64,000 bases of DNA, from positions 1 through 64,000 of the forward strand of contig JACQWY010000026.1 of the NCBI GenBank assembly GCA_016209015.1. The letters are read 5' to 3'. This stretch comes from Gammaproteobacteria bacterium (GTDB lineage Bacteria; Pseudomonadota; Gammaproteobacteria; Ga0077536). The position numbers were made by a program, and so were the translations under genes. The stretch's first letter is position 1, and every line of letters starts with the position of its first letter. Below, in pieces: positions 46,639 to 64,000 of the stretch. A model generated the notes under the pieces. The model did no database searches, had not been told where the DNA came from, and saw nothing but the letters and a program-made list of their open reading frames with translations.

Positions 46639-47334
46639 ATGAACCTCTCGCTCAGCGCGGCGGAATGGACCGCCGTCCTGCTCTCCCTCAAAGTCTCTCT
46701 GTGGTGCACGGCGTGTCTTTGCGTGCCCGGCGTCGCCGTGGGCTGGCTGCTCGCGCGGCGCGAATTCCCCGGCAAGGCGCTGCTCGACAGCCTCGTCCAC
46801 CTGCCGCTCGTGCTGCCGCCGGTCGTCCCGGGCTATCTGCTCCTGCTGCTCCTCGGCAGCCGCGGGCCGCTCGGCCGCTGGCTCGACGCGAGCTTCGGCA
46901 TCCGTCTCGCTTTCACCTGGCAAGGCGCGGTGATCGCCGCGGCGGTGATGGCATTTCCGCTCATGGTGCGTGCCGTGCGCCTGTCCATCGAGCTCGTCGA
47001 TCGCCGGCTCGAGGATGCCGCGCGCGCGCTCGGCGCCGCACCCTGGCGCGTGTTCGCGACGGTCACGCTGCCGCTCGCGCTGCCCGGGCTCCTGACCGGT
47101 CTCGTGCTCGCGTTCAGCCGCAGCCTCGGCGAGTTCGGCGCGACGATTACGTTCGTCGGCAACATCCCCGGTGAGACGCGCACGCTCGCGCTCGCGATCT
47201 ATTCCGCCGCGCAGACCCCAGGCAACGAGCTGCCGGCGCTCAGGCTCGTGCTGCTCTCGCTCGTGCTCGCGCTCGGCGCACTCTACGCGGCGGAGCGGCT
47301 CGCGGCGCAGGCGCGCCGGCGCCTGCAGGGCTGA
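46639..47334 (+). CDS. modB: Molybdate ABC transporter permease
   Basis: A 231-residue permease with five or six membrane helices and the ABC-permease EAA loop (EDAARALGAAPWRVFATVTLPLALPGLLTGLVLAFSRSLGEFGATITFVGN), of the ModB type (SLGEFGA). It moves molybdate across the inner membrane. modC begins four bases later. No modA binding-protein gene precedes it, as is usual; the gene before it is the GGDEF-EAL protein. Supply of molybdenum to the two hydroxylases in this window is a likely use. Confidence 0.92.
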   Translation: MNLSLSAAEWTAVLLSLKVSLWCTACLCVPGVAVGWLLARREFPGKALLDSLVHLPLVLPPVVPGYLLLLLLGSRGPLGRWLDASFGIRLAFTWQGAVIAAAVMAFPLMVRAVRLSIELVDRRLEDAARALGAAPWRVFATVTLPLALPGLLTGLVLAFSRSLGEFGATITFVGNIPGETRTLALAIYSAAQTPGNELPALRLVLLSLVLALGALYAAERLAAQARRRLQG

Positions 47335-47337
47335 GCA

Positions 47338-48426
47338 ATGCTCGAGCTCGATGTCGAGCTGCAGCGCGGCGCATTCGAGATGCGCGCCGCGCTCGTACTG
47401 CCGAGCGCGGTGACCGGGATCTTCGGCCGCTCGGGATCCGGCAAGAGCAGCCTGCTCGGCACCATCGCCGGGCTCGTGCTTCCGCGGCGCGGGCGCATCG
47501 TGCTCGACGGCGTGACGCTCTGCGACGTGGCGCGCGGGGTGTGGGTGCCGCCGCATCGTCGACGCATCGGCCTGGTCTTCCAGGACAGTCTGCTGTTCCC
47601 GCATCTGAGCGTGCGCGGCAATCTCGAATACGGTTTCAAGCTCGTGCCGAGGTCCGAGCGCCGCTTCACGCTCGCGCAGATCGCGGCGCTGCTCGACATC
47701 GAGCCGCTGCTCGCGCGCCGGCCGCAACATCTCTCGGGCGGGGAGAAACAACGCGTGGCGCTCGGTCGCGCGCTGCTGTCGGCGCCGCGACTGCTGCTGC
47801 TCGACGAGCCGCTCGCCGCGCTCGACGCCGGGCTCAAGCAGCAAATCCTGCCGTTCCTGCGCCGCGTGAAGGACGAGCTCGGCACGCCCATGCTCTACGT
47901 GAGCCACGCGATCGACGAGATCCTGCATCTCACCTCCGAGCTCGCGGTGATCGACGCGGGGCGCGTGCTCGCGCACGGCACGTTCGGCGAAGTCATCCAC
48001 GACGAGCGCGTGCTCGGCCTCGCGCAGTCCCTGGGATTGGAGAACGTGCTCGCCGTGCGCATCACGGGTCACGATGCGGACGGCGCGGCGACACTCGGCG
48101 ATTGTCACGGCCGCGAAATGCATCTGCCCCCGTGCGCGGCCCGGGCCGGCGCGACCGTCTACGTGAGCCTGCGCGCCTCGAACATCGCGCTCGCGCTCGC
48201 GCCGGTGCCCGGCACGACGATTCAGAACCAGCTCCCGGGAATCGTCAGCCGCATCACGCGGCTCGGCGATCGTATGCTCGTCGAGATCGACGTCGGTCAG
48301 CCGCTGCTCGCCGAAGTGAGCGTGCGCGCCGTGCAGACTCTCGGCCTCGCGCCCGGGGCCGCGGCGATCTGCCTCGTCAAGTCACAGGCGCTCGCCTATC
48401 TCGGCGGCGGTATCGTGCCCGGGTGA
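47338..48426 (+). CDS. modC: Molybdate ABC transporter ATP-binding protein
   Basis: A 362-residue ATPase. Walker A GRSGSGKSS (30-38), signature LSGGEKQRVALGRALL, Walker B LLLLDEPLAALD and the H-loop YVSHAID are all intact. The C-terminal TOBE/Mop domain (VSLRASNIALALAPVPGTTIQNQLPGIVSRITRLGDRMLVEIDVG) binds molybdate in this family and reduces uptake. It is coupled to modB. modA is missing from the window. Confidence 0.93.
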   Translation: MLELDVELQRGAFEMRAALVLPSAVTGIFGRSGSGKSSLLGTIAGLVLPRRGRIVLDGVTLCDVARGVWVPPHRRRIGLVFQDSLLFPHLSVRGNLEYGFKLVPRSERRFTLAQIAALLDIEPLLARRPQHLSGGEKQRVALGRALLSAPRLLLLDEPLAALDAGLKQQILPFLRRVKDELGTPMLYVSHAIDEILHLTSELAVIDAGRVLAHGTFGEVIHDERVLGLAQSLGLENVLAVRITGHDADGAATLGDCHGREMHLPPCAARAGATVYVSLRASNIALALAPVPGTTIQNQLPGIVSRITRLGDRMLVEIDVGQPLLAEVSVRAVQTLGLAPGAAAICLVKSQALAYLGGGIVPG

Positions 48427-48830: not shown

Positions 48831-49571
48831 ATGTTCAACAATGCCACAACCGGCGCGGGCGGGCATGCGCCCGGAGTCGCACCAACTCAGGTGCCTGTCG
48901 TTCTCGTCGAGGACCACGCGATTCTGCGCGAAGGTCTGAAAGCCCTCATCGAATTCGAAGCCGAGCTCAAGGTGGTCGGCGAGGCCGGCTGCGCGCAGGA
49001 CGGTGTCGAGCTCGCGGAACGGCTGCAGCCGCAGGTCGTCGTCACGGATCTCGCACTGCCGGGACGCTCGGGCATCGCGCTCATCACCGAGCTGCAGGAA
49101 AAGTGTCCGGAAACACGCATCCTCGTCCTCACCGCGCACAACACGGAGGAATACATCCGTGCGGCCTTGAATGCCGGTGCCACGGGCTACGTGCTGAAGG
49201 ACTCGAGTCGCGCAGAGCTCATCCAGGCCATCCGCAGCGTCGCGACGGGTCGGCAGTTCCTGTGTCAGGAAGTCTCGGCGCGGATCCTCTCGCGCTATCT
49301 GATGCCGCAGGAAGCGCCGAAACCGACGGCCTCGTCGGCGACGGTGACCGGCCGCGAGCGCGAGGTGCTGACGAGTATCGCGCTCGGTCACTCGAACAAG
49401 CACATCGCGCGGCTGTTGAATCTCTCGGTGAAGACCGTCGAGAAGCATCGCTCGAACCTGATGCGCAAGCTCGGCCTGCACAATACCGCGGCGGTCACGA
49501 TGTTCGCGATCAGGAACGGTTACGTGCGCAGCGAGGAAGTCGCGGGCGTGAACACGGCAGTCCACACCTAG
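48831..49571 (+). CDS. NarL/FixJ-type response regulator
   Basis: A 246-residue regulator. The receiver domain has the acidic pair E-D near 27-28, phospho-acceptor D73 in VVTDLALPG, T in VLTAHN and K in YVLKDSSR. A LuxR-type DNA-binding domain follows (VTGREREVLTSIALGHSNKHIARLLNLSVKTVEKHRSNLMRKLGLHNTAAVTMFAIRNG). No cognate kinase is adjacent. The stop codon TAG shares its last base with the start of the five-hairpin repeat at 49571-49708. The N-terminal 20 residues are a non-conserved Gly/Ala-rich extension. Confidence 0.92.
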   Translation: MFNNATTGAGGHAPGVAPTQVPVVLVEDHAILREGLKALIEFEAELKVVGEAGCAQDGVELAERLQPQVVVTDLALPGRSGIALITELQEKCPETRILVLTAHNTEEYIRAALNAGATGYVLKDSSRAELIQAIRSVATGRQFLCQEVSARILSRYLMPQEAPKPTASSATVTGREREVLTSIALGHSNKHIARLLNLSVKTVEKHRSNLMRKLGLHNTAAVTMFAIRNGYVRSEEVAGVNTAVHT

Positions 49572-49778: not shown

Positions 49779-50381
49779 TCAGCGGCCGGCCAGCGCCGGC
49801 CGGAGCTCGTTCATGAGCGCCTCGGCCGTGGTGAATCCATCGAGCCGGATCCAGGACGCCGACGCCGCAGTCCGTACGAACGTCACCGGGGCATGTTCCA
49901 TCTTCCGACCGCGATAAGCGTCGAAGGCGCGCTGGATCGATTGGATGGCCGCCACCGTCCCCGTGTAGTGATGCCACGCCGGTCCGGCGCGATATTTCGC
50001 CGCATAGGCGGCGAGCCGCGCGGGCGTATCCTGCTCCGGATCGATCGACACCGAGACGAGCCGGACGCGCGCCTGCTGCGCGCCGAGCCGGCCCTGCAGA
50101 GCAGAGAACGTCCTGCTCGAGAGCGGGCAGATCGTGTCGCAGGAAGTGAAGACGAAATTCACCACGACGGGCCCTTCCCGATTCAGTTCATCGGCGAAAT
50201 TCACGGCCTTCCCGTCTTCCCGTACGACCTCGACCGCCGGCACGACATACTCGACGGCACGGCGTTGGACCACGGCCGCGGAGGTATGCGCGGCGCCGTC
50301 CGCTTCATGGCAGAACGCGCTTTCGACCGCGAACGCCACAACGAGGCCCGTCACGGACAAAACGATTCTCGAAACCTTCAT
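49779..50381 (-). CDS. SCO1/SenC-family copper chaperone-like protein
   Basis: A 200-residue thioredoxin-fold protein with an N-terminal signal or anchor (MKVSRIVLSVTGLVVAFAVESAF). The copper/redox motif is C81-D-T-I-C85, and a histidine in MEHAPVTFV is at the position of the third ligand. 'VNFVFTSC' and 'VRLVSVSIDPEQDTPARLAAYAAKY' are typical. SCO proteins deliver copper to cytochrome oxidases or other cuproproteins, or act as thiol reductants, in the periplasm. No cytochrome oxidase gene is near; it closes the minus-strand block that starts with the giant surface protein. Confidence 0.9.
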   Translation of the reverse strand: MKVSRIVLSVTGLVVAFAVESAFCHEADGAAHTSAAVVQRRAVEYVVPAVEVVREDGKAVNFADELNREGPVVVNFVFTSCDTICPLSSRTFSALQGRLGAQQARVRLVSVSIDPEQDTPARLAAYAAKYRAGPAWHHYTGTVAAIQSIQRAFDAYRGRKMEHAPVTFVRTAASASWIRLDGFTTAEALMNELRPALAGR

Positions 50382-50421
50382 GGCAGTCTCCTGTTGCAGT
50401 CTTCGGGCGCCGGCCCTCTGG

Positions 50422-52080
50422 TCACGGCACGATCCATCCGCCGTCGGCAGCCACTCGCGATTTCGCCCCGACGGGAAACTTGACGACATAGCCGCCTTTC
50501 GAGGCGAACCTCTGATGGGGCGCGAGCGCGAGGCGCGGGTAGTACCCCGTGATGAGCCGCTTGTCGAGCATGTCCTCGAGCCGCTCGATCAGATATTCCG
50601 GATAGAAGGCATCCGCCATGTGGTTCAACGCCTCGGCGAGCACGGTGCAGACGAGGAACGTATCGGCCTGCACGCGATCGGCCACCACCGGAATGTGCCG
50701 CAGGCGAAACCAGCCGTACGCGTAGTCGAGATTGATCCGGCGCTCGTCAGGCAGGCCGATCGGATAAGCCATGTGCACGTGCGCGCGCCAGGTCGGCGCC
50801 AACGGTACCCGCTCCATGCCGCCCATGAGTCCTGACAGATAGACCGCGCCTGCCGGCGGAGCACGGGGCTGGAGCGCAGCCAGATCCGCGGGTCGCAGCC
50901 ACAGAATCACTGCCTCCGCCGGCGCGGCGCGTTGCAATGCGTCGACCAGCGCGGATTCGGGCGCGGCGCGTGCCAGCGCGCTGTCGGTAATCCGGATGCC
51001 GCGACTCCGCAGTGCGCTCGCGAGCGCGGCGGCGCCCACTTCGCCGACGTCCCCCGTGCGGAACAATTGTCGAACTTCGCGCACCGCGCTGCCCGCGCTC
51101 TCGGCCAGCAGGCGATGGGCCATGAGATCGGCTTCGAGCGTCACGCCGCGGGTGAAGTAGAGCGAGTAGAAATCCTCGTCCGCCGTCGCCGGCGGTGCCT
51201 CGACGTTCGGGAACAGACAGGGCACGTGCCTGTGCTCGCAGAACGCATGGATCGGTTCCCAGGTGCGGCCCCCGACGCCGGAGAGCACCGCGAAGACCGG
51301 TTCGGCGTCGAACTTCCGCTCGAGCTGCGCCGGCCAGGTATCCGGCGCGCCGGTCAACTCCCACACGTGGAGCTGCCACTGGCGATTGACCATATAGTGC
51401 ATCGTGCGTTGCGAATGCACGCGCGGGACCGCCCCGATGTGAAAGGAGTTCTTCGTCGCGACGAACTGCGTGAGCACGTCGAGCATGCCCTTGCGGGCCG
51501 CAGGATCCGCTTCCGGCGTGACGATCGTCGCGAAGTGCAGGGTCGTTGCACCGACGCCGGGGACTCTCGGGCGATCGAGCTTCCCGAGGTAATCGATGAG
51601 CGCTGCCATGTCGCCGTCGGCGAGCTGGTAACGCGGCATCAAGGGGATCAGCGACCGGCCGTGGGCATCGACTCCTTCGCGTATCGCGCGGGCGAGGGTC
51701 GCATCGGAATACGCTTCGTGATCGAAGCGGATGCCGTCCACGAACGGCAGGTCGAATTCCTCGGCGCTGCTGCGGCCGTGGTAGAGATAGCGTCCCGTGA
51801 CGGGCGGGATCGTGATGCGGCCTTCTCGCGCTCCGAGGCCGCTGCGGCGATGGCACTTCACGCAGGCGGCGTCGGCGCCGCGGATGACTTCGTTGCCGGC
51901 GCGCGCAGCCTGCACCGGTGCGCCGGAGGGCAGCACGCCGTCGCGGTAGATGCCGGCGCCGGGCAGGGCGTCCGGCTCCGGGCGCGCCGCCGCGGCCGCG
52001 GCGGCGAGGGCGACGCAAGCCAGGGCGGCGGCGATCGAACCGCGCAGGATCGCGAGCGGTAATTTGCCGACCTGAGGCAT
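50422..52080 (-). CDS. Cytochrome c fused to a periplasmic-binding-protein-like domain
   Basis: A 552-residue exported protein with a signal peptide to about residue 32. A class-I cytochrome c domain (35-170) has the haem site C73-V-K-C76-H77 and a likely axial methionine in SLIPLMPRYQLADGDMAALIDYLGKLD. A long C-terminal domain (about 175-552) resembles type-I amino-acid/branched-chain periplasmic binding proteins: LHFATIVTPEADPAARKGMLDVLTQFVATKNS, EPVFAVLSGVGGRTWEPIHAFCEHRHVPCLFPNVEAPP and VYLSGLMGG. This couples electron transfer to ligand sensing or docking. It lies 40 bases upstream of the SCO gene. Confidence 0.82.
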   Translation of the reverse strand: MPQVGKLPLAILRGSIAAALACVALAAAAAAARPEPDALPGAGIYRDGVLPSGAPVQAARAGNEVIRGADAACVKCHRRSGLGAREGRITIPPVTGRYLYHGRSSAEEFDLPFVDGIRFDHEAYSDATLARAIREGVDAHGRSLIPLMPRYQLADGDMAALIDYLGKLDRPRVPGVGATTLHFATIVTPEADPAARKGMLDVLTQFVATKNSFHIGAVPRVHSQRTMHYMVNRQWQLHVWELTGAPDTWPAQLERKFDAEPVFAVLSGVGGRTWEPIHAFCEHRHVPCLFPNVEAPPATADEDFYSLYFTRGVTLEADLMAHRLLAESAGSAVREVRQLFRTGDVGEVGAAALASALRSRGIRITDSALARAAPESALVDALQRAAPAEAVILWLRPADLAALQPRAPPAGAVYLSGLMGGMERVPLAPTWRAHVHMAYPIGLPDERRINLDYAYGWFRLRHIPVVADRVQADTFLVCTVLAEALNHMADAFYPEYLIERLEDMLDKRLITGYYPRLALAPHQRFASKGGYVVKFPVGAKSRVAADGGWIVP

Positions 52081-52101
52081 CAGGCGCAGACCGGAAGCGC
52101 G

Positions 52102-53037
52102 CTATCGGCCGCCCACGGAATCCGCGGCGGCCGGTGGAGATCCTGCCGGCGCGCCGCCCCGCCCGTCGGACGTCGCCGCCGGCTTCGGGGGATCGACGCG
52201 GCGCAGGTGTCCGCCGTTCGCGCTGCTACGCTCGCGAACGTTCGGTCTGGTGAACATCCGCGGATCGAGTCCGGGCTCGATCTCCACTTTCTCCAGGATC
52301 ATGCGATCGGCGAGCGCCCCGTTGCCGGCACGGGTTTCGATCGTCGTCGGCACCTGCACGGCACCGAAGGTCTTGAAATCGCGATTGAACACCTTCACCG
52401 CGCCACCCGGGCCGTGCGGCTCGTGCACGGGGCGATCGTATTCGACGTCGAGGAAGCTCTGAGCATCGACCCAGACGTGATGCATGGCGCCGGACGGCAG
52501 CGTCACGCCGAGGCGGTAGGCGCGATGCCCCTCGACGTCCTCCGTGCCTTCGAGCGCAATGCGGTTCCCCTTGGCCGCGCCATCGATGAGCGGGCCGTCG
52601 AAGCCCTGACCGTCCGCGGCAAATCTGCGCTCTTCTTCATCGTAGGCCTCGAGCGCCGGCGCGCCGTCACTGCCCATGCTGAGCTTCCAGCCCTGCGACC
52701 CGTCGTATATCCGCGCATGGCGCCGACCCTTCATCGTCATTTCGAAGCGGGTCTTGTTCGGGCGTTCCATCGCGAGCACGAACTGCGGGGCGTCACCCGC
52801 GCCCGGCCCGGCGCGTTCGATGTGTCCCGCCCACAGCATGGCGTGGATCTTCCGCCAGGCATCCAGGCCCCCGCGCGCCGCGACGTTGCGCTCGACGATC
52901 CGGGCCGCGCTGAGCGTGGGTTCGGATCCGTTCTGTGCGGCGCCGGCCGCGGCCGTCACGGCGAGGAGCGCTGCCGCTGCGGACGCGACGACGCCACCGC
53001 GATGCAGGGGCCGCGTCTCGGGCAAGTGGAATTTCAT
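52102..53037 (-). CDS. LolA-like exported protein, paralogue 1
   Basis: A 311-residue exported protein (hydrophobic signal around residues 15-34, GGVVASAAAALLAVTAAAGAAQ). The mature core (IVERNVAARGGLDAWRKIHAMLWAGHIERAG ... KTRFEMTMKGRRHARIYDGSQGWKLS ... EGHRAYRLGVTLPSGAMHHVWVDAQSFLDVEYDR ... FKTFGAVQVPTTIETRAG) matches the 'outer membrane lipoprotein-sorting' LolA-like fold. It is clearly homologous to the next gene upstream (53163-54083). A charged, proline-rich tail of about 40 residues follows. Such proteins bind acyl chains or lipidated partners in the periplasm. Confidence 0.8.
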   Translation of the reverse strand: MKFHLPETRPLHRGGVVASAAAALLAVTAAAGAAQNGSEPTLSAARIVERNVAARGGLDAWRKIHAMLWAGHIERAGPGAGDAPQFVLAMERPNKTRFEMTMKGRRHARIYDGSQGWKLSMGSDGAPALEAYDEEERRFAADGQGFDGPLIDGAAKGNRIALEGTEDVEGHRAYRLGVTLPSGAMHHVWVDAQSFLDVEYDRPVHEPHGPGGAVKVFNRDFKTFGAVQVPTTIETRAGNGALADRMILEKVEIEPGLDPRMFTRPNVRERSSANGGHLRRVDPPKPAATSDGRGGAPAGSPPAAADSVGGR

Positions 53038-53162
53038 GGCTCGACGTTTCCTGCGGCGACCTGCTGCAATCCCGGCCGCGCCGGGGATGATCGGCAACGT
53101 GCGGGCGGGGCTCCGAGTGGAAAGGTCCGGCGCGCCATTGCCGATGACGCGCCGGCGTGGGC

Positions 53163-54083
53163 CTATTTCGCCGCCGAGGAGTCCGCAATCGCGGGCACAC
53201 CGGCGGGCTTGCCGAAGAGACTGTCGTCCATCGGCGCGTTCACGACGACCTTGTCGAAAGTCATCTTGTGAGTACCCTTCACGCCTTCGACGACGGTCTC
53301 CTGAACGCGCGGCACCTGGAGTCCGTTCTCCGTCTTGTAGTCGCGATAGAAGATCGCGACCTCGTGCATCCGTCCGTCGAGCTTGCGCGCCTCGCCGTCG
53401 ATCTTCTTCTCCAGGAACGACTTCGCGTCGATCCACAGGCGGCGCCCCACACCGCTCTTGCCGGTCAACTGCAGTACGTAGGTCTTGGCGCCTTCGATCT
53501 CCTGCATGCCGAGCAATTTCACCGTCGTACCCTTCGCCGCGTAATCGACCAGCGGCCCGTCGAGCTCTTCCCATGCGGCGGCCGACTTCGTCTCCGCAGG
53601 CGTGTAAGGCTCGACGTCGGTGCGATTGAGATAGGGACGCAGCTTCCAGCCCTGCGTCCCGTCGTAGACCTGCACCGCGGTCATGTGCTTCACCGTGAGC
53701 TCGAGACGGCTCTTGTGCGCCCGTTTGAGCTTCATCACGAAAGGCAGCGCGGTATTGTCCTTGCCGCCTGCTTCCAGGCTGCCGGTGTAGGCGAGGGTCT
53801 CGACCGCGCGCCAGGCTGCGAGGCCGCCGCGCGCGGCGATGTTGCGATCGACGATCTGCCCGGCGGTGATGCCGGCGGCCGGTGTGTAGCCCGGCTCGGT
53901 CGACTTCGCCTTCGCTGCGAGCCCAACCGCGGACGGTGTCGGCGCGACGTAGGACCCGGCGCGCAGCGGCTTCGATGCGTGTCCGGCCGCGACGCCCGGC
54001 GCCGTGGCGGCAGTGGCTTCGAGGGATCCCGCCGCCATCGTCAGCGCGGCGGTGATCGCCAGCGCACATTTTCGATTCTTCAT
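53163..54083 (-). CDS. LolA-like exported protein, paralogue 2
   Basis: A 306-residue exported protein (signal MKNRKCALAITAALTMAAGSLEATA). It shares with its neighbour the sequence path IVDRNIAARGGLAAWRAVETLAYTGSLEAGG, SRLELTVKHMTAVQVYDGTQGWKL, 'LDGPLVDYAAKG', 'LWIDAKSFLEKKIDGEARKLDGRMHEVAIFYRDYKTENGLQVPRVQETVVEG'. The two form a tandem duplication with 125 bases between them. An N-terminal linker (GHASKPLRAGSYVAPTPSAVGLAAKAKS) is specific to this copy. The ligand is unknown; the context is the giant surface protein and redox proteins on the same strand. Confidence 0.8.
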   Translation of the reverse strand: MKNRKCALAITAALTMAAGSLEATAATAPGVAAGHASKPLRAGSYVAPTPSAVGLAAKAKSTEPGYTPAAGITAGQIVDRNIAARGGLAAWRAVETLAYTGSLEAGGKDNTALPFVMKLKRAHKSRLELTVKHMTAVQVYDGTQGWKLRPYLNRTDVEPYTPAETKSAAAWEELDGPLVDYAAKGTTVKLLGMQEIEGAKTYVLQLTGKSGVGRRLWIDAKSFLEKKIDGEARKLDGRMHEVAIFYRDYKTENGLQVPRVQETVVEGVKGTHKMTFDKVVVNAPMDDSLFGKPAGVPAIADSSAAK

Positions 54084-54123
54084 TGCATGCTCCTGACCTA
54101 TCGCGCAGCGCGCCCGCGGCGCA

Positions 54124-54714
54124 TCAATCCACGACGAGATTCTCGACGCGGAAGTCGCCGACGACGACGTCGACCCGATCGCCGGTCCGCACCGGGAAAC
54201 CCTTGTTCGAGAACACCATCCACACGTCCTTGCCGTTCTCTACGGCGCTGATCTGACGCAGCTTGCCGACGTTCTCCATCTGCGGCACCTGCAGTGCCAC
54301 GCCGGCACGGCGCGCGACGAGGGCGGGCGTGGCGCGCTCGTCGGCCAGCACTTTTGCACGCTCCGCGTTCACGACGTGGGCCGTGAAGCGGACGAGGTTG
54401 CCTGAATTCGTCAGATGCACTTTCGGATTGTCCACACCCCAGAGAGACGCGTAGTAGGACCGCATTCCGGGTGTCATGTGCGGGCGCTTGTAGCGCGAAT
54501 GGGGCGCCGTGCTGACGGGAATGGGCGGTCCGGCCTCTGCCGCCGTCACGTTCGCGACGGGTGCGGGCTCACGGCCGCCGCCCGGCTTGCCCGCAGTATG
54601 GAGCGCGAGCAGCAGCAGCGCTGCGACGAGGCCGAGAACGCCGGCTTTGAGCCCAGTGCTCCTGTGGTCCACCGTTCCGTCACGCGTGGTCGAAAGGCCG
54701 GTCGGGTGATTCAT
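54124..54714 (-). CDS. Single-pass membrane protein with periplasmic domain
   Basis: A 196-residue protein with one membrane helix (about 24-41, AGVLGLVAALLLLALHTAG) and a periplasmic part of about 155 residues: YYASLWGVDNPKVHLTNSGNLVRFTAHVVNAERAKVLADERATPALVARRAGVALQVPQMENVGKLRQ and a strand-rich end. No family recognised. It starts inside the stop of the upstream small membrane protein (four-base overlap at 54711-54714), so the two are translationally coupled. Confidence 0.7.
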   Translation of the reverse strand: MNHPTGLSTTRDGTVDHRSTGLKAGVLGLVAALLLLALHTAGKPGGGREPAPVANVTAAEAGPPIPVSTAPHSRYKRPHMTPGMRSYYASLWGVDNPKVHLTNSGNLVRFTAHVVNAERAKVLADERATPALVARRAGVALQVPQMENVGKLRQISAVENGKDVWMVFSNKGFPVRTGDRVDVVVGDFRVENLVVD

Positions 54715-55037
54715 CGGAACGCACCACGCGGGATGCGCCCGGATTGCCCGAGGGAGATCTGCTGAGACTTTCCAGGCCCGTGCACGACGCGGCCCGCCTG
54801 GGCGCGGCGCTGGTTGGCGGCGGCGTAAGGCGATTGACGCGGGACGTGGACGATCGCAGCGCCCGCCCCTCGCGCATCGACGTCGGGACGGGAAGCGTCT
54901 CCGACGTGTCCCGCGAGCGCGAGTACCGCGAGCAGGCCGGCGCAGGCAGTGGCGATGACCGCCAGCACCGGGATGATCGACGCGTCGCGCTTCGCGCCCG
55001 ACGCCGGGCAGTCAGAGGCCGCACTGATATTTTGCAT
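54711..55037 (-). CDS. Small single-pass membrane protein
   Basis: A 108-residue protein with one hydrophobic helix (SIIPVLAVIATACAGLLAVLALAG, about 20-44) and a basic, glutamine-rich, likely unstructured periplasmic tail (VPRQSPYAAANQRRAQAGRVVHGPGKSQQ). It is coupled to the gene at 54124-54714 and lies 158 bases after the giant protein gene on the same strand. No family recognised; support is the overlap coupling and the membrane segment. Confidence 0.6.
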   Translation of the reverse strand: MQNISAASDCPASGAKRDASIIPVLAVIATACAGLLAVLALAGHVGDASRPDVDARGAGAAIVHVPRQSPYAAANQRRAQAGRVVHGPGKSQQISLGQSGRIPRGAFR

Positions 55038-55155
55038 ACGCGAAACTTTCCCCGTCCGTCACGTTCGCCGCGCGACACGGGGAGCTGAGCTCTCCGTATC
55101 GCTTGGCGCCTGTCCGATTACGCAAACCTTTTTTCGTTGCCGGCGGTGGCGTCCT

Positions 55156-55187
55156 GCCGTGGGACGGACGGGTGCCCGCCCCACGGC
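55156..55187 (-). terminator. Hairpin after the giant surface protein gene
   Basis: An 8-bp stem GCCGTGGG/CCCACGGC lies 9 bases past the stop codon. There is no T-run directly behind it, so it may only slow polymerase or protect the 3' end between the giant gene and the smaller genes. Confidence 0.4.
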
Positions 55188-55195
55188 TTCATCGC

Positions 55196-57182
55196 TTACG
55201 GGGCATTGCCGCCCGCGAAGTTGTCGACGCGCTGATTCAGCGGCATCAGCATGCCGATCCGGCCGCTTCCGGTCACGGTGGTCTGCACGATGCCCGCGAA
55301 CGTCGAGTTGACCCACACGTACACCACGCCATTCGCATCCGCTCGCGCCGTCAGCGTGTTGCCGGCGGCCACGGCGGCCGTCAGCGTGCCCGCGGTCGTG
55401 AAGCTCAAGCCGGCGTTCGTGGTGGTCGCGACCGAGACCTGCGTGCCATTCGTGCTCACGCGGATCCAGTTCGTGGGAATCGCCGCCGTACCGCCCGAGA
55501 CCTTCAGCAGCAGCGCCTCACCATTGACCGAAGTCGCACCGGCGCCCGCGGTCATGGCCGCCGCCTGCGCCGCACCGAAGCTCGACGCATTCCAATAGGC
55601 CAGCGGGTTCAGCGTGCAATTCGCGAGCGGTCCGCCCGAGAGGATCGGCGGGTTGGCACAGACCGCCTGGTTCGTGTTCACCCGCAGCGCGGCGTTGCTG
55701 CTCACGACGACCTGCGCCCAGTTCGAACCCAGCGTGCTGGCGTTAGCCCGGTTGAAGTTGTCGAGCACGCCGAGCGCGGGCAGAGCCGGCGCCACACCCG
55801 TACCGTTCAACGTCACCACGGCCGGCACACCCGTCGCTGGCGCCGTACCCGAGACCGTCACGCTGCTGTTCGCCGCGCCGACCGCGAGCGGGCTGAACGT
55901 CATGTCGATCGTGCAGCTCGCGCCGGCATCGAGCGTCGTGCCGCAGGTGCCGCCGGTGCGTGTGTACCGCGCCGATCCGATCGTGACGCTCAAGCCGTTC
56001 AGCATCGACGTATTCGCCGCATTCGCGACCGTCAGGGTCTGCGCCGCGCTACTTGCACCGACCGTCGCACTGAAGCTCAGCGGACCGGCCGGCGTGACCG
56101 TGATGCTCGGCGGCACGACGACGTTCGTCGTCAGCGCCGCGGGCGAGTTCAGCACCGTCACGCCGGTTGCCGTCACCGTCGCCTGGCCGACCTTCGGCCC
56201 GAGCGGGTCGTTGGCGGGCGAGGTGTAGACGACGCCGATCGTGCAGGTCGAGCTCGCCGCGAGCGTCGTGCCGCAGGTGCCGCCGGAGCGGGCGTAACCC
56301 GTGCCGCTGACCGCGACGCCGATGCCCGTCATGCCAACCGTGCTGTTGTTGTGCAACACCAGGTTCTGCACGGCGGTCGTGCCGCCGACCGCCACGATGC
56401 CGAGATCGAGCGATCCGGGCGAGAGGCTGGGTGCCGCACCGGCGGTCGCCACGTACTCCACGGCGCCGATGTCCGGATTGCCGCTACGGTTAGTGCCGTA
56501 GAAGTCCACCGTCGGCGCCGTATTGCCGAGCACCGAGGCCGCCCCCGCATTGATCGCCGGGGAGCCCGACGCGAGATGCTTGTCGGCCAGCGGCGGCAGC
56601 ACGGTGCCCGCCACGGTGTAGCCCGCCGCATTGCTGAGCGAGAACGGTCCGAACGTCAGATTGACCCAGTTGTTCCCTTCGTCGACGGTCGGCGCGGCGA
56701 CCACCTGATTCAGGGCGAAGACCGGATAGAGACCCGTCGTCTCGGCGCGGCCCGCCGGCGCATTGAAGCCGGCGAACTGACCGCCACCTTCCGGCGGCAG
56801 GCGCGAGCCGTTGCAGTAGTCGGCGATGACCTGCGGGTCGGTGCCGAGCAGATTGCCGTTGCCCGCGTAGTCACCCCCCGAGAGGATGGAATTGCGCGGC
56901 ACCATCTTCCAGCCCCCGGGACCGGACAGGCCCGTGCTGTTGTGGGTCGACGGACCGCTGTCACCGCGCACGCCGAGATCCCAGTAATTCACGGGACCGG
57001 AGCTGCCCGGAGCGCCGTTCGACGTACCCACGCTCGCGCACATGCCGGTGTAGGTCTGGTTCAGCGACGGCACGAGCGTCACGACCTTCTGCGTATTCTG
57101 CTGACCGGTCGCCATGTCGCCCACTTCGACGTGGAAGGCGCGGTTGTGCCATAGCGCATCGTTCAGCACGACATCGTCACCA
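55196..57182 (-). CDS. C-terminal part of the giant surface protein, displaced by frameshift
   Basis: About 660 residues in a different frame from the upstream part (57163-63999). It begins at DVVLNDALWHNRAFHVEVGD where the upstream frame hits a stop. It reads the end of a parallel beta-helix or pectate-lyase-like region (SPAINAGAASVLGN ... NRSGNPDIGAVEYVA), two or more choice-of-anchor/ASH-like domains (SLDLGIVAVGGTTAVQNLVLHNNS ... CGTTLAASSTCTIGVVY; and a repeat of that), and a last beta-sandwich (LGVLDNFNRANASTLGSNWAQVVV ... GSGRIGMLMPLNQRVDNFAGG) up to the stop at 55196. No start signal is visible at the junction, so it is probably part of one original gene. A sequencing error is the other explanation. 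Confidence 0.75.
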
Positions 57183-60100
57183 CACCTGCCGGCTGATTCG
57201 TCGACACGTTGTTGATGTCGTCGGGGCAGGTCGCGCCGGGCTGGGTGCCCGGGTTGCAACCCGGCGGCGGCGTCGAGGCCAGCGGTGCGCCGATGGTCTT
57301 GAACAGCACGCCGGCCGACGCCGTCGTGTCGTTGTCGACGATGGTGTTGTTCATCAGGCGCACTTTCAATGCATCCTGGATCGAGACGCCGCCGCCGTCC
57401 CAGCCGGCGACGTTGTCCGCGATGATGTTGTTCTGGAGCGTGACGTCGTTCCACAGCGCCGGGCGGGCGGGCATCGCGACGACGTCGTCGCCATTCACCA
57501 TCTGGATGCGGATACCGCCACCGGAACCGCTTTCCGCCGCGTTCCCCATGATGAGGTTCGAGTCGACCAGGAGATTGCGACCCGTGCCTTCCGGCAGGCC
57601 CGGCGGACAATCCGCGTCCGAGGTCGCACCGCACTCCGTGCCATCGGGCAAGGTGCGGTCCGGCGAGGCGCCGAGGATGCCGAGACCACCGCCGTTCACG
57701 GGCAGAGTCGCCTGCTGGCTCTGGTTGAACAGGATCTGGTTGTTCTTGATCTTGCCGTCGTTGCTGAAGCCGACGTGCGCCACACCGGCCGAGTCGCCGT
57801 AGCTCAGGTTGCCGCACACCCAGTTGTGATCGAGCAGGTAGCCGTCCGAGCCGGAGCAGAAGCTCACGCCACCGGCGGCGGACGGCGTGCCCGAGTACAG
57901 CGCGTCGCCGATCGAGGCGTTGCCGACCACCATGTTGTGGTGGACCTTCGTGTTGACGTTGAAGCCGTAGCCGTACTGGTAGCCCTCGGGCTGATTGGCA
58001 GACCCGCAGTTGTTCTGGAACGGCAGCGGCACCGTGCCGTCGATCACCGTCGCGGCGCACACGAACGGATCCGGGAACTCGCCGTTGCCGATCGTGATGC
58101 CGCCGGTCAGCGTGCCGTGGTTCGCACGCACCCGGTTGTTCGACACTTCGAGGTTGTGGTTCCAGGCATGGGCCCAGATCGCACCACCGCCCTGCGAGCT
58201 GTTGATGACGCTGAAGCCGTCGATGCGCGACGGGTTGCAGTTGAAGTTCGCGGTCGCGTAATCGCGGCCGTTCGGCGTGGCGCCGCCGAAGCTCGTGCAA
58301 TCGGTGTTCGAGTTCGTGAGGTAGGTATAGCCGGCCGGGAAGCCGCCGGCCGTCGCCGAACCCCAGAAGTCGTTGCTGTTGTTCGGGATGCGCACGCCGC
58401 GGCCGAGCACGGTCACGCCCGCGCCTTCATAGGCGCCCATCAGCGTCGGCTCCTGGAGCATCTGCGCCAGGTTGCCGTTGCCGGTGGTATCCCAGCCGAC
58501 GACCGTCTCGAACGGAATGCGATCGACACGCTGCTGCAGGCCCGCAGGACAACTGTACTTGTTCGTCGGATCGTAGGCCATGCCCGTGCCGAGCGTGCCC
58601 GTGCCGTCGTTCAGGAGCGGACGGCCGTCGAGCGAGAGACCGAACAAACAGTTCACTTCGCGCCGCCAGGCGTCCATCTTGCCGGCCGGATGGGCATCGG
58701 CATTGATGGTCACCGACTCCGCGCCCACACCCTGCAGACGCACCGGCTTCCACATCAGCAGATTGTCGCGATACGTGCCCGGTCCGACGATGATCAGATC
58801 GCCGGGCTTCGCGTTGTCGATCGCGCTCTGCAGCGGGCTCGGCTCGAGGCGGCCGAAGGCGGCGTCGGTGTCGATCGGCGCGTAGCCGGCCGGATACGTG
58901 ACCGCGGTCGGCGTCACGTAGATCGGCGCGTTGCCGCCGACGGTGACGGTGATCGCGTCGATCGTCTTCTTGCCGTTCGCCGCGGTGATCTCGAGCTCGC
59001 CACAGCGGGCCGACGGCGCGCCGCGCTGCTGCAGGCTGCAGTCCGGCACGGTGCCGGGGACCGTGACGGTAATCGCACTGTCCGTCCAGGTGTCGACCGT
59101 CGCGGTGATGCCGCCGATCGTCACCGAGCCCGGCGTCGAACCGAAGCCGTAATGACGCGTGACGAACTTGTCGTTGTACGGCGCCGACGTCGCGTTCGGG
59201 CCGGAGTAGGCATGGTTCAATACCTGCTTGTCGCCGAGCGCGGTGATGGTCAGCTCGGCGGTCGTGGTCGGCGCAATGGCCGTCACGCCGCCGGCCAGCA
59301 ACACGCCGTTGACCGTGTTCAGTCCAGTCTGATTGAAGACCAGCGCGTAGCCGTTCGGCGTCGCGCCCGTGCCTGTGGCTGCAGTGACGATGACGTTCGC
59401 ACCGGTGCCGCTCGCCGTGTAGCCGTGGGTGCCGGTCAGCGCATTGATCGCAGCCCGCAGCGCCGATGCCATTTTGTTGTTGCGCGTCGTCTGCGACGAG
59501 CTCGAGCAGTCGACCTGTGTCGATCCCGACACGAGGGCCCCGCAACGCAGAGGTTGCGCGACGAGCGCCGTGCTGTTGAGCATCACGGAATTGATGCGAT
59601 CGTTGGGCGTCGTCGCCGTCGTTCCCTGCTGGCTGACCCCGCCGATGTTGAAATTCAGGCTGGCCCGCACCTCCGCCACGCCGGGATCGATCCACGGCCC
59701 CGTGCCCACACTGTTCTGCACGGTCTTGATGGCCGGCGTCGTATCCGGGTATTCGCAGTCCGGCAGGTTGTAGCCCGCGGCGAAGGACGCCGTCGGCACC
59801 ACCGGGGTATCGAGATAGGACGTCTCGCCCGGCATGTACGGGAACTCGTAACAGAAATTGCTGTACGCCGGGTTGTACGCGGGATCCGTGATCATCTGCC
59901 CCGGATGCGCCGGATCGGCGATCGGCCCCGGATCGTTCATGCACATGATCATCGTGTTCGGGATGTACCCGGACGGGCTCGGCGGGAACACCGTCCAGCT
60001 CGAGGCCGCCATGCCGTTGTACTGGCCCCACTGGTCGCTGTAGACGCGCGAGATTTCGCGGCCCGAGAAGTCCCGCACCGCGACCGGCAGGCTCGGCACC

Positions 60101-63100
60101 GCGAACTTCTCGCCGAACTGCGGCGAGAACGGATCGAACTCGGACGCGAAGTCGTTCGTGATCGTGCCCGCGAAATGGCTCGCCTTGTGCGCCGAGGTGA
60201 AGAGATAGAACTTCGCGAGACCCGTCATCTCGTCGGAGAGCGTGACTTCCTTGCGATCGCAGGTCGAACGCGTCGCGCCGGCGAACGGCGTCCAGAGCTC
60301 CGACTGCGGGAAGAGACTGAGATAATCCGGCACGACGCGCTGCTCGCCGACGCACGGCCAGAACACTTCGAACGAGCCCGTGTCGCCCTCGCGGCGCGGC
60401 GAGGCGCCGTTGTTGACGAGCGGCTGCAGCGGGTTGTACGGGTTGTACAGCGCGTCGACGCTCGCCTGGTCCGGCATGATGAAGATGTTGCCGAAGCCCG
60501 CGAACTGCGTGACGGCCGGCGCGATGTAGGCATCGCCCTGGAGGATGTTCTTGTCCTCTTCCTTCACGAGCTCGTAACCCGTCGGCAGCACGACTTCCAC
60601 CACGTACACGCCGGGCGGCAGCATCGGGGTGCCGTCGTCCGGATTCGTGGTGCAGATGCTGCAGTTCGTCTTGTAGTTCTTCGGGTCGAGCGCGAGGAAC
60701 CAGTTCGCCGCGTTCGGCTCCTCGCCCGCGGCACCGGGATTGCCGACCGGCAACTCGCCGCTCGCGCTCTGCTTCGCGACGACGCTCGGGAACTTGTACA
60801 TGCCGTCGTAGGGCGCGGGCTGCAGCGCGCTCGCCATCGACCAGCCGTCGTAGCACTTGAAGCGGCCGCGCTCGGCGAGCGGCTTGTCCTCGTCGAGCGG
60901 GAACTTGCCGTCGACCATCGTGAAGTAGAATGGACTGTCGGTCTCCTGACCGGGGCAGCTCATGTTCGGCACGTAGCCGTTCGCCGCATCCCCGACGAAC
61001 GTTCCGTCCGCATTGCGGCGGAAGCCCTGCGCCCAGGCATCGAAGCTCGTGCTGAGCGTCATGTCGACGAGCGTCAGGTGCTCGACGCCGTTGTCGTCGA
61101 TCGTCTTCTTGTAGAGGTTGACCTTCGTGTTCGGGATGCCGGGCGTCCACATCAACTGCACGGACAGCGCCGGATCGTCGAACGGACGGGTGGACGCAAA
61201 CAGCACGTGGCCGCGGATACCGCCGTTTTCGCCGTACCGGTCGCTCACGCCCGGCTGACCGACGAGCTGCCCTTCACCCTTCTTCTTGAACGGCTGCATC
61301 GCGAACTCGAGGAAGGCATTGCTGCCGAGCAGGCCCTGCCAGCCCTGGGTGCCCGCCCAGCCGCGATCGATGCGGCCGGTGGAGCCGGCACTGCCGCCGC
61401 CGTTCGGATTCAGCAGGTTCTCGGTCGTGCAGTCGGCATCCGAGCAATACACCGAGCCGGGCGTGCGCAGGGCATCGGGCAGCTTCGAGGAAAGCGTTTC
61501 GAACGTGTTCGCGAAGCCGGCGGCGATCTCGGAGTTGCCACAGCCCCGGATGCCCGGATCGGCACAGGCCGCGCTGCCGTCCACCGGTCCCTGCGCGTCG
61601 TATACCGCATGCACGCCGGTCAACTTGTAGCGCGCCTGGTCGGTGTCGACGACGAGCCAGTTCAGGCGCGGGAAGATTTCGTTGAAGCCTGCATAACCTT
61701 CGAAGTCGGTGTTGTTGAAATTCTCGTAGCTGCCGTCGCGGTAACGAACGTTGAACGGCACGAGCGGCAGGCCCGGCTCGTTCGCCTGCGACACGCCGTC
61801 GCCGTTCTGATCGAGGAACACGCGGCCGTAGAGGTTCGTGCGCCACTGCATGACCGGGATGTCGGCGCGGTTGTTCGCGGCCGACCCGGGGCCCGAGCTC
61901 CCGGGCTTGATCGGCGTCGACAGGCCATCGACCAGGAGGTCGTTGTTCTGATCGAAGACGGTGAGCTTGAAATTGCCCTGCGGAATGTTCTTGAACTCGA
62001 AGTGACCTTCCGCGTCGCAGAACGCGAAATCGAAATCCTCGCTGTCCGGGTAGCTGATGCTCACATAGCAGCTCGTGAAGCCGTAGGCATCGTAGCTGCC
62101 GCTGGAGTACACGCGCTGATCGGGCGTGCGACTGAGGCGCGTGGCGGTGACCGTGCCGTAGAAGTTCTCGTTGCACGCGATGTTCCGGCAGATGCCGGCC
62201 TTGCGGTCCTGGATGATCTTCGGATTCGCGAAGCCCATCGCGACGTGGTAGCCGCCCGGGCCGAATTCCTGGAAGTAGCCCGGCTCGCCGGCCTTGATGA
62301 AGACCTCGATCGCCTTCGTGCCGTCGAGCGTGTTCGTCTGCAGCCACTGCTCCTTGCGCGCGAGGCGCTCGGCGCCGGCCACCGCGGTCACCTCGTACAT
62401 GCCGGGGTACATGTTCGCGATCACCGCGTGTCCGGCGAGCGGCGAGAGCACGTTCGTCGGATGGTTCGAGCTGTCGGATTCGTACTTCGGGCAGGTCTCG
62501 ATGATGCCGACGATGCCGTCCTGGTTCGCCGAGATCGGGCAGGCATTGTAGCCCGTCGCCGGATCGACGCGACCGGCGAGCGCGTTCGTCACGGGCATGC
62601 CGAACATGTCGTAGGTGATCTGACCGGCCGAGCCGCCCATCGCGCCCGCCTGGTCGAGCAGGACCATGTTGAAACCACCGAGGCCGGGCTCGTTCGGCGC
62701 GAGCACGTCCACGCCGCCGCCGGTGTCGTTCTCGCCGTTCAACGGGTTGTCGTCTTCGAAGATGAAGACGTGGAACGTCGCGGTCTGGATCGGCAGCGGC
62801 TGCACGATGACGTCGACCGCGGTCTGTCCCGCGGCGATCTGCGCGCCGCCCATGGCGTGCCCGACGCAACTGTCGAGCGCGTCGTTGAAGTCGCAGCCGC
62901 CGGGGCCGTTCAGCGGATCGGCCGCATCGCCCGGCAGCACGGAGATGAAATAGCGTTTCGTCGGATCGAGTGCGACGTCACCGGGCAGGGTGACGGCCTT
63001 CTGCGTCGCATCGCTCGTGCAGCGGCCGTAGGCGTCGCAGGCCGCGTCGTTGCCGAGTACCTTCTGGCCGGCCTCGCAGGAGATCGGGCCGGTGCAGCCC

Positions 63101-63999
63101 TGGGCAATCACGGGCGTGTGCGCGGCGTGGAAGTTGATCGCGAGATTGCGCACGGCACGGGTGCTGCACGCCGGCGGCGAGAGCGACGCGTTGTCCTTGC
63201 ACAGCGGCTTCGATTCCTCGGCGGGATCGACGTCGATCGTGCGATCCTCCTCGATGATCCAGCGGTAATCGCCGACGGTCTTGGCACCGTCCTTCGCGTC
63301 CTTGACGGTGACGGCGAGATTGCTCGCGGCCGGGAACGTGACCGTCACGGTCGCATTCGTGGAGGACGTACCCTGGGCATTCTTCGCCTTGTACGTGAAC
63401 GAGCAGCTCGCGTTCGCGCCCTTCGTCGCGCTGAACGAGCCGTCGGTCGCGACGCTCACGCTGCCGCAGTCCACGTTCGCGGCGTCGGCGGCGGCGAGAT
63501 CGAAGCCGGACGGATCGCTGTCGTTGTTCAGCACGCCGGGGCGCGCGACCTCGAGCGCGCTGGCGAGGTTGCTGGTGTAGGCATCGGCAGTCGCGGTGGG
63601 CGGCAGGCCCAGGCAGGTGCCGGTGCAGACATTCAAGGTCACCGTCGCGCAAGTGTCGCCCACCGTCGTGCCGTTGCCGCAATACACGAACGAGTCGCCG
63701 GTGAAGCCGGAATTCGGAACGTACGTGAACGTGCCGTTTGCGCTGAGCGTCACGGTCCCGTTCGCGGGAGCGGTCTGCACCGCGACGCCGTACACGCCGA
63801 TGTCATTGGCGACGAGGCCCTTCGCGACCGTGCGAATCGTCAAGGGCTGCTCGGCCACCACGCTGTAGCTGTCGGCATTCGCTTTCGCGGTCACTGCCGA
63901 AGCGCCGGATCCCGCCGCCCCTGCGGCGGCGCCGTCGGCGACTTTGATATAGGCCTGCATGCCGCCGTCGCGCTCGTTGTTCGTGGAGACACCGAGCAT
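57163..63999 (-). CDS. Giant multidomain surface protein, N-terminus outside window
   Basis: At least 2278 residues, entering from the right edge. Cadherin/Big-like repeats appear first (NADSYSVVAEQPLTIRTVAKGLVANDIG; PTATADAYTSNL ... VLNNDSDPSG), then an Asp/Cys-rich region. An SdrD B-like domain follows (residues 715-785, LYGRVFLDQNGDGVSQANEPGLPLVPFNVRY), with a long mixed region, an IPT/TIG domain (1615-1690, GSVTIGGITATVDTWTDSAITVTVPG) and a right-handed beta-helix (1695-2270, 'LQSAIDNAKPGDLIIVGPGTYRDN', many NN-x-I repeats). It must be secreted or outer-surface. It ends prematurely at 57163; the frame continues after a one-base shift in the segment 55196-57182. It heads a minus-strand block with membrane, LolA-like, cytochrome and SCO genes. 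Confidence 0.8.
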   Translation of the reverse strand: MLGVSTNNERDGGMQAYIKVADGAAAGAAGSGASAVTAKANADSYSVVAEQPLTIRTVAKGLVANDIGVYGVAVQTAPANGTVTLSANGTFTYVPNSGFTGDSFVYCGNGTTVGDTCATVTLNVCTGTCLGLPPTATADAYTSNLASALEVARPGVLNNDSDPSGFDLAAADAANVDCGSVSVATDGSFSATKGANASCSFTYKAKNAQGTSSTNATVTVTFPAASNLAVTVKDAKDGAKTVGDYRWIIEEDRTIDVDPAEESKPLCKDNASLSPPACSTRAVRNLAINFHAAHTPVIAQGCTGPISCEAGQKVLGNDAACDAYGRCTSDATQKAVTLPGDVALDPTKRYFISVLPGDAADPLNGPGGCDFNDALDSCVGHAMGGAQIAAGQTAVDVIVQPLPIQTATFHVFIFEDDNPLNGENDTGGGVDVLAPNEPGLGGFNMVLLDQAGAMGGSAGQITYDMFGMPVTNALAGRVDPATGYNACPISANQDGIVGIIETCPKYESDSSNHPTNVLSPLAGHAVIANMYPGMYEVTAVAGAERLARKEQWLQTNTLDGTKAIEVFIKAGEPGYFQEFGPGGYHVAMGFANPKIIQDRKAGICRNIACNENFYGTVTATRLSRTPDQRVYSSGSYDAYGFTSCYVSISYPDSEDFDFAFCDAEGHFEFKNIPQGNFKLTVFDQNNDLLVDGLSTPIKPGSSGPGSAANNRADIPVMQWRTNLYGRVFLDQNGDGVSQANEPGLPLVPFNVRYRDGSYENFNNTDFEGYAGFNEIFPRLNWLVVDTDQARYKLTGVHAVYDAQGPVDGSAACADPGIRGCGNSEIAAGFANTFETLSSKLPDALRTPGSVYCSDADCTTENLLNPNGGGSAGSTGRIDRGWAGTQGWQGLLGSNAFLEFAMQPFKKKGEGQLVGQPGVSDRYGENGGIRGHVLFASTRPFDDPALSVQLMWTPGIPNTKVNLYKKTIDDNGVEHLTLVDMTLSTSFDAWAQGFRRNADGTFVGDAANGYVPNMSCPGQETDSPFYFTMVDGKFPLDEDKPLAERGRFKCYDGWSMASALQPAPYDGMYKFPSVVAKQSASGELPVGNPGAAGEEPNAANWFLALDPKNYKTNCSICTTNPDDGTPMLPPGVYVVEVVLPTGYELVKEEDKNILQGDAYIAPAVTQFAGFGNIFIMPDQASVDALYNPYNPLQPLVNNGASPRREGDTGSFEVFWPCVGEQRVVPDYLSLFPQSELWTPFAGATRSTCDRKEVTLSDEMTGLAKFYLFTSAHKASHFAGTITNDFASEFDPFSPQFGEKFAVPSLPVAVRDFSGREISRVYSDQWGQYNGMAASSWTVFPPSPSGYIPNTMIMCMNDPGPIADPAHPGQMITDPAYNPAYSNFCYEFPYMPGETSYLDTPVVPTASFAAGYNLPDCEYPDTTPAIKTVQNSVGTGPWIDPGVAEVRASLNFNIGGVSQQGTTATTPNDRINSVMLNSTALVAQPLRCGALVSGSTQVDCSSSSQTTRNNKMASALRAAINALTGTHGYTASGTGANVIVTAATGTGATPNGYALVFNQTGLNTVNGVLLAGGVTAIAPTTTAELTITALGDKQVLNHAYSGPNATSAPYNDKFVTRHYGFGSTPGSVTIGGITATVDTWTDSAITVTVPGTVPDCSLQQRGAPSARCGELEITAANGKKTIDAITVTVGGNAPIYVTPTAVTYPAGYAPIDTDAAFGRLEPSPLQSAIDNAKPGDLIIVGPGTYRDNLLMWKPVRLQGVGAESVTINADAHPAGKMDAWRREVNCLFGLSLDGRPLLNDGTGTLGTGMAYDPTNKYSCPAGLQQRVDRIPFETVVGWDTTGNGNLAQMLQEPTLMGAYEGAGVTVLGRGVRIPNNSNDFWGSATAGGFPAGYTYLTNSNTDCTSFGGATPNGRDYATANFNCNPSRIDGFSVINSSQGGGAIWAHAWNHNLEVSNNRVRANHGTLTGGITIGNGEFPDPFVCAATVIDGTVPLPFQNNCGSANQPEGYQYGYGFNVNTKVHHNMVVGNASIGDALYSGTPSAAGGVSFCSGSDGYLLDHNWVCGNLSYGDSAGVAHVGFSNDGKIKNNQILFNQSQQATLPVNGGGLGILGASPDRTLPDGTECGATSDADCPPGLPEGTGRNLLVDSNLIMGNAAESGSGGGIRIQMVNGDDVVAMPARPALWNDVTLQNNIIADNVAGWDGGGVSIQDALKVRLMNNTIVDNDTTASAGVLFKTIGAPLASTPPPGCNPGTQPGATCPDDINNVSTNQPAGVVTMSC

Positions 64000-64000
64000 G

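Follow-up and report, generated by a model that had tools for sequence, protein, structure and literature searches.

What kind of system joins, in one compact run of genes, a giant surface protein, tandem LolA-like proteins, a haem protein and a copper chaperone? The question is raised by the end of the stretch of DNA analysed here, a window of 64,000 nucleotides (positions 1-64000) from a contig 111.5 kb long, one of the 65 that make up a draft genome of 5.7 Mb. The answer that I consider most probable, with appreciable room for others, is that the genes belong to a unit that makes, exports and supplies with copper a heteromeric multicopper oxidase (MCO) of the cell surface. This oxidase would be a six-domain ring with one active site, and Fe(II) or Mn(II) its likeliest substrate.

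A seven-gene block within a larger unit

The first-pass annotation had described seven genes on one strand, and all seven are present on the minus strand in the order given then (giant, MPA, MPB, LolA-like 1, LolA-like 2, cytochrome-PBP, SCO; Table 1). They form the downstream half of a larger unit of ~31 kb, all of it on the minus strand. The upstream part comprises, in order, a sensor histidine kinase, GspG, GspF, GspE, several ORFs in the stretch of type II secretion system (T2SS) genes, and the secretin GspD. Three small proteins follow, two of them with a pseudopilin methylation motif, and then MCO1, MCO2 and the giant, ahead of MPA, MPB, the two LolA-like proteins, the cytochrome c-PBP protein and SCO. 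The guess made at first pass, that the SCO gene might lie beside a large secreted oxidase as in some Mn-oxidising bacteria, was a good one: beyond position 64000 two multicopper oxidase genes, MCO2 and MCO1, were found on the same strand. With both oxidase genes immediately upstream and a cupredoxin unit at the start of the giant, the earlier reading of the block as envelope redox chemistry is strengthened. Nothing favours the lipid or lipoprotein handling proposed along with it beyond the LolA-like fold.

Table 1. Coordinates of the block and of the two oxidase genes upstream of it (positions beyond 64000 lie outside the window)
Feature	Position	Strand	Evidence and remarks
SCO1/SenC-family thiol/copper chaperone (SCO)	49779..50381 (longest ORF to 50489)	-	Pfam SCO1-SenC, E 1.6e-20
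MofC-like mono-haem cytochrome c + type-I periplasmic-binding domain (cytochrome-PBP)	50422..52080	-	motif; Pfam in relatives
LolA-like periplasmic protein 2	52102..53037	-	33% identical to LolA-like 1
LolA-like periplasmic protein 1	53163..54083	-	Pfam LolA_like, E 5.1e-5
MPB, small exported/anchored protein with C-terminal Ig-like beta-sandwich	54124..54714	-	AlphaFold model
MPA, small single-span protein	54711..55037	-	ORF; ATGA overlap with MPB (54711-54714)
Giant protein	55196..63999 in window, start at contig 65430	-	ORFs, Pfam domains, profile comparison
Frame break in giant gene	57163..57190 (at ~57187)	-	comparison with relatives
MCO2	contig 65443-67110	-	555 aa; upstream of giant
MCO1	contig ~67074-69092	-	672 aa; upstream of MCO2

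The giant runs for 2755 residues up to a stop at 57163 and for another ~660 in the next frame. Across this frameshift it had been put at more than 2900 residues, and with its start beyond the window it comes to ~3,400. The N-terminal cupredoxin unit, most of which lies outside the window, is followed by Ig/cadherin, SdrD_B-like, parallel beta-helix and choice-of-anchor Q and D domains.

Among the smaller genes, the longest ORF of SCO overlaps the cytochrome gene, and an internal ATG at 50381, after which a signal peptide is encoded, is the likelier start. In the cytochrome-PBP family CxxCH and a downstream Met are invariant (21 relatives' sequences), and Pfam recognises Cytochrom_C in 19, Peripla_BP_6 in four and ANF_receptor in one of the 21. 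The predicted fusion of a haem protein with a ligand-binding fold is therefore supported, and one relative is annotated as an 'ABC transporter substrate-binding protein'. That the LolA-like genes are tandem paralogues also holds, the LolA_like family matching 15/16 members of their alignment. LolA-like 1 shares 45-60% identity with proteins at the same position in relatives, and the best PDB match of the pair in a profile search is an outer-membrane lipoprotein-sorting protein (E 0.025). The C-terminal domain of MPB is modelled with pLDDT mostly >90; its fold search returned generic beta-sandwich matches and no convincing structural relative, and a profile search against the PDB no match. MPA has no matches among the related loci.

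Several genes around the unit deserve mention. A LuxR-type response regulator (48831-49571, plus strand) is convergent with SCO, and may form a regulator pair with the histidine kinase at the opposite end, that of the T2SS; response regulators flank the Paraburkholderia largidicola cluster too. Close by, on the plus strand, are a large PAS-GGDEF-EAL protein (44006-46579) and an ABC permease with an ABC ATPase carrying a TOBE domain, which resemble the molybdate transporter ModB/ModC (46639-48426). Directly past the histidine kinase lies a lytic transglycosylase (SLT) gene (contig C48, 80998-81606, minus strand; L003:3998-4606). This gene may belong to the system, because in P. largidicola a lytic transglycosylase gene adjoins the cytochrome-PBP gene. 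In Cupriavidus metallidurans CH34 a PpiC-type PPIase (L017:34363-35253) adjoins the SCO gene of the cluster, an arrangement that recalls MofB and the SurA-like gene of the Pseudomonas mnxG operon.

Three cupredoxin units and a divided set of copper ligands

MCO1 and MCO2 both match the Pfam family Cu-oxidase_3 (E 1.8e-15 and 1.7e-8), and their PDB matches are two-domain oxidases and Cu nitrite reductases. The same folds are matched by the AlphaFold model of MCO2, the C-terminal part of which is of low confidence (pLDDT 30-40 over the last 100 residues, the site of the HSH motif). The cupredoxin unit of the giant (MCO3) was recognised from profile comparison, and from Pfam on a stand-alone relative. 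Profile comparison relates it to both oxidases (MCO2-MCO3, E 4.9e-26; MCO1-MCO3, E 1.2e-7) and relates these to each other (E 2.7e-15), and by this measure the three are homologous two-domain cupredoxin units, over both domains. In a diverged relative (G043; L016, contig 247) a stand-alone 487-aa protein scoring above the Cu-oxidase cut-offs corresponds to the third unit, and the adhesin and beta-helix regions form a protein of their own; both proteins bear dockerin-like ends, suggesting an alternative way of joining the pieces. The oxidase of the present genome is encoded by three separate ORFs, and a search of 275 genomes of the class gave no single-chain version among its strong hits. Two apparent MCO1-MCO2 fusions were ruled out: ahead of MCO2 the long ORF of locus L029 is not in frame with it, and the L099 match merely started inside the MCO1 ORF.

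The copper ligands are divided between the two oxidases. MCO1 contains HxxHxHG, HCH and a further His and Met, that is, the type-1 copper ligands and four trinuclear histidines, and these residues (H311, H313, H353 and H355, with C354, H361 and M364/M366) are ~100% conserved in 75 sequences. MCO2 contains HPxHxHG and HSH, without a Cys, which provide the other four trinuclear histidines (H357, H359, H521 and H523, ~100% conserved in 82 sequences). No second-half copper motif occurs in the 75 MCO1 sequences, no first-half motif in the 82 MCO2 sequences, and in the ligand conservation analysis the giant's cupredoxin unit had neither motif set and no equivalent ligands. The eight invariant trinuclear histidines are thus split four and four, the type-1 cysteine is in MCO1 only, and the full set (eight trinuclear histidines plus the type-1 Cys, His and Met) is found in no one chain but in MCO1 and MCO2 together.

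The trinuclear site of a trimeric two-domain oxidase sits where domain 1 of one subunit meets domain 2 of its neighbour. Domain 1 of 3g5w aligns with domain 1 of MCO1 over HWHG and HCH..H..M, while domain 2 of 3g5w and 2zwn aligns with domain 2 of MCO2, the HSH/HDH alignment alone not being significant. With MCO1 matching the first domain and MCO2 the second domain of these enzymes, I infer that one trinuclear site is common to the two gene products. The ligand pattern accordingly predicts that neither MCO1 nor MCO2 works alone.

In the scheme proposed here, a single two-domain cupredoxin protein is represented by three diverged copies, MCO1, MCO2 and the giant's N-terminal unit. These would come together as subunits do in a trimeric two-domain oxidase, giving a six-domain ring with a single active site. 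Domain 1 of MCO1 would bring the type-1 copper and four trinuclear histidines, and domain 2 of MCO2 the other four. The giant would bring a catalytically dead third unit and a long adhesive arm by which the complex is held on the cell or on a mineral. SCO may help copper loading in the periplasm, after which the adjacent type II system would export the folded complex. The cytochrome-PBP and LolA-like proteins would be accessory, in maturation, in binding of substrate or copper, or as an electron branch.

Conservation of the unit and its export

A profile scan of one genome per named species (84,980 species) gave 180 relatives. The best 80 of these 180, together with three plasmid records and the diverged relative G043, make up the 84 loci compared here. 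MCO1, MCO2 and the giant are in this order on one strand in all 84, from Burkholderiaceae, other Proteobacteria and soil Acidobacteria; chance is excluded as the origin of an arrangement that recurs so constantly. MPB has a match in 50 loci, in most of them just after the giant gene, and the LolA-like genes in 38, most other loci ending before these genes would be reached; the genes downstream of the giant follow in most loci with enough DNA. The block is therefore strongly co-conserved, and a lack of co-conservation, named at first pass as an outcome that would refute the reading, was not observed. In six loci SCO immediately precedes MCO1. Of 29 genomes searched, 20 gave the cytochrome-PBP gene, its coordinates in proteobacterial contigs lying just past the cluster, and the nine genomes without it are all acidobacterial. 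Nine of ten acidobacterial genomes with the MCO core have no match, the tenth a distant one only (37% identity), and because of this absence the protein is probably accessory to catalysis.

Heterotrophs of soil and plants (Paraburkholderia, Burkholderia, Collimonas, Acidobacteria) predominate among the carriers, which include C. metallidurans and C. basilensis; in C. metallidurans CH34 the cluster is on the second large replicon. Within the class of the present genome the cluster is sparse (5/275 genomes, this one included, at E below 1e-80). The MCO2 tree needs several changes between phyla, and is consistent with transfer between them. Two or three copies of the MCO core occur in several Acidobacteria and some gammaproteobacterial genomes (L060/L082, L063/L089, L072/L079, L073/L074, L071/L096, L083/L090, G131).

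The secretion system that adjoins the oxidase genes, directly upstream and on the same strand, is type II. A type I system, one of the things that the first pass suggested looking for, was not found among the neighbours scanned. T2SS genes are also directly upstream in C. metallidurans and further downstream in Paraburkholderia. An adjacent T2SS is not universal, since the upstream DNA examined contains such genes in 13/44 proteobacterial loci and 1/22 acidobacterial loci, and the host genome has five other secretin matches, so that another secretion system could serve instead. Export of the oxidase by the adjacent T2SS is nevertheless a plausible and testable route to the cell surface. A literature search on MCO and type II secretion in Burkholderia found nothing.

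Substrate, rival explanations and known systems

What would such a complex oxidise? The likeliest substrate would be an extracellular reduced metal, either Fe(II), mineral-bound Fe(II) included, or Mn(II), and electrons probably pass to O2, given that the trinuclear site appears complete. The many carriers that live in soil as heterotrophs, and are not known to oxidise Fe or Mn, count against the Fe/Mn reading. A secreted heteromeric oxidase could instead act, laccase-like, on phenolics, lignin fragments or humics in soil: most carriers live in soil or with plants as heterotrophs, two-domain oxidases often act on phenols, and the giant's beta-helix region resembles polysaccharide lyases, as does that of the corresponding protein of Sideroxydans lithotrophicus ES-1. 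An organic substrate is possible but doubtful, given that the cluster of ES-1, an iron oxidiser, responds to solid Fe(II), with Slit_1812-1818 expression higher on magnetite than on Fe(II)-citrate (PMC12016527), and that clusters of MofC-like, SCO and MCO genes have otherwise been proposed for metal redox (PMC5566968). The host, moreover, encodes RuBisCO and RuBisCO-like proteins (contigs C50, C28 and C20), which fits lithotrophy without proving it; this and the magnetite response also count in favour of the oxidase explanation. Copper resistance, by an extracellular Cu(I) oxidase or a copper-sequestering surface protein, would account for SCO and for the presence among the carriers of C. basilensis and of C. 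metallidurans, well known for its metal tolerance. It is very improbable, for neither copper efflux genes nor CopB/C/D-like genes occur among the neighbours scanned, copper resistance modules do not usually feature a giant adhesin or an adjoining T2SS, and many carriers are not metal specialists; with its partner genes lacking, it was rejected as the main explanation.

Two other views concern the integrity of the unit. The T2SS, MCO and envelope genes might be a loose neighbourhood without joint function, the LolA-like and cytochrome-PBP proteins acting elsewhere, as the missing cytochrome-PBP matches in Acidobacteria and the minority of loci with an adjacent T2SS could suggest. The constant core order, the position of MPB and LolA-like genes directly next to it in most loci with remaining DNA, the cytochrome-PBP gene just past these in proteobacterial contigs, and phylum changes on the MCO2 tree that fit transfer as a unit make this scarcely credible. 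The broken giant gene also counts against the oxidase explanation. The frameshift is real in the present assembly, and the giant is a single ORF in 69/74 relatives. Because relatives have roughly 35-50 residues at this site that are missing here, the break appears to be an out-of-frame deletion or an assembly fault, and not only a single-base slip. A system decaying in the present genome, which would be compatible with the main explanation, could have lost these residues in this way. Decay is rather unlikely, since the remaining cluster genes are all intact, the 2755-residue product retains the cupredoxin unit, and a draft assembly may err at a repetitive beta-helix region.

A secreted metal oxidase is the reading I prefer. 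As for its full form, namely a trinuclear centre at the contact of two separately encoded subunits, a ligand-free paralogue serving as giant adhesive arm, export by the neighbouring T2SS, spread across phyla in soil bacteria and oxidation of extracellular metal or mineral, I regard the case as evenly balanced. Clusters of this type are widespread among soil bacteria that are amenable to genetics; were Fe(II) or Mn(II) the substrate, an ability to oxidise metal outside the cell would have been overlooked in many common soil bacteria.

By gene content, order and motif pattern the cluster is of the same type as Slit_1812-1818 of ES-1. In that strain three tandem MCO genes lie with a mofC-like gene and a copper chaperone (PMC5566968, Fig. 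4C), MofC-like proteins being a cytochrome c with a periplasmic-binding domain (PMC5566968), and similar clusters have been noted in Paraburkholderia, Ralstonia, Anaeromyxobacter and Steroidobacteraceae (PMC12016527). The first-pass annotation knew of no named system with this gene set. It was right that there is neither a system name nor a proven function, but the gene set itself had been reported in ES-1 in 2017 and 2025. Both clusters have three tandem cupredoxin/MCO genes on one strand, two with MCO motifs and a third that is far larger, motif-free and equipped with adhesin and lyase-like/beta-helix domains. Both also have SCO1/SenC, a mofC-like cytochrome and small hypothetical proteins, in the same overall order. 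Likened in this way by gene content, the present cluster adds the upstream T2SS, two LolA-like genes and the coupled pair of small proteins. The division of the ligands, an association with T2SS genes, the two LolA-like proteins and the broad distribution in Acidobacteria were not found in PMC5566968 or PMC12016527, supplements aside, and the split copper site and the T2SS link are what is added here.

The MofA/OmpB clusters (Leptothrix mofABC, Geobacter ompB) likewise combine an extracellular MCO, a MofC-like cytochrome-PBP and an SCO chaperone, and a T2SS serves for the export of Geobacter OmpB (Mehta 2006, cited in PMC5566968). Their MCO is a single chain, whereas the oxidase described here is split into three proteins, and Pfam revealed no MofB-type PPIase among the cluster genes scanned. 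The two-domain oxidases with type-1 copper in domain 1 (3g5w, 2zwn) share domain architecture and ligand motifs with the present proteins; they are homotrimers with three sites, whereas here the half-sites are on different gene products and the third unit is ligand-free. Finally, ceruloplasmin and MnxG have six cupredoxin domains and one trinuclear site, as would the ring proposed here, but they are made of one polypeptide, and the ring would be made of three.
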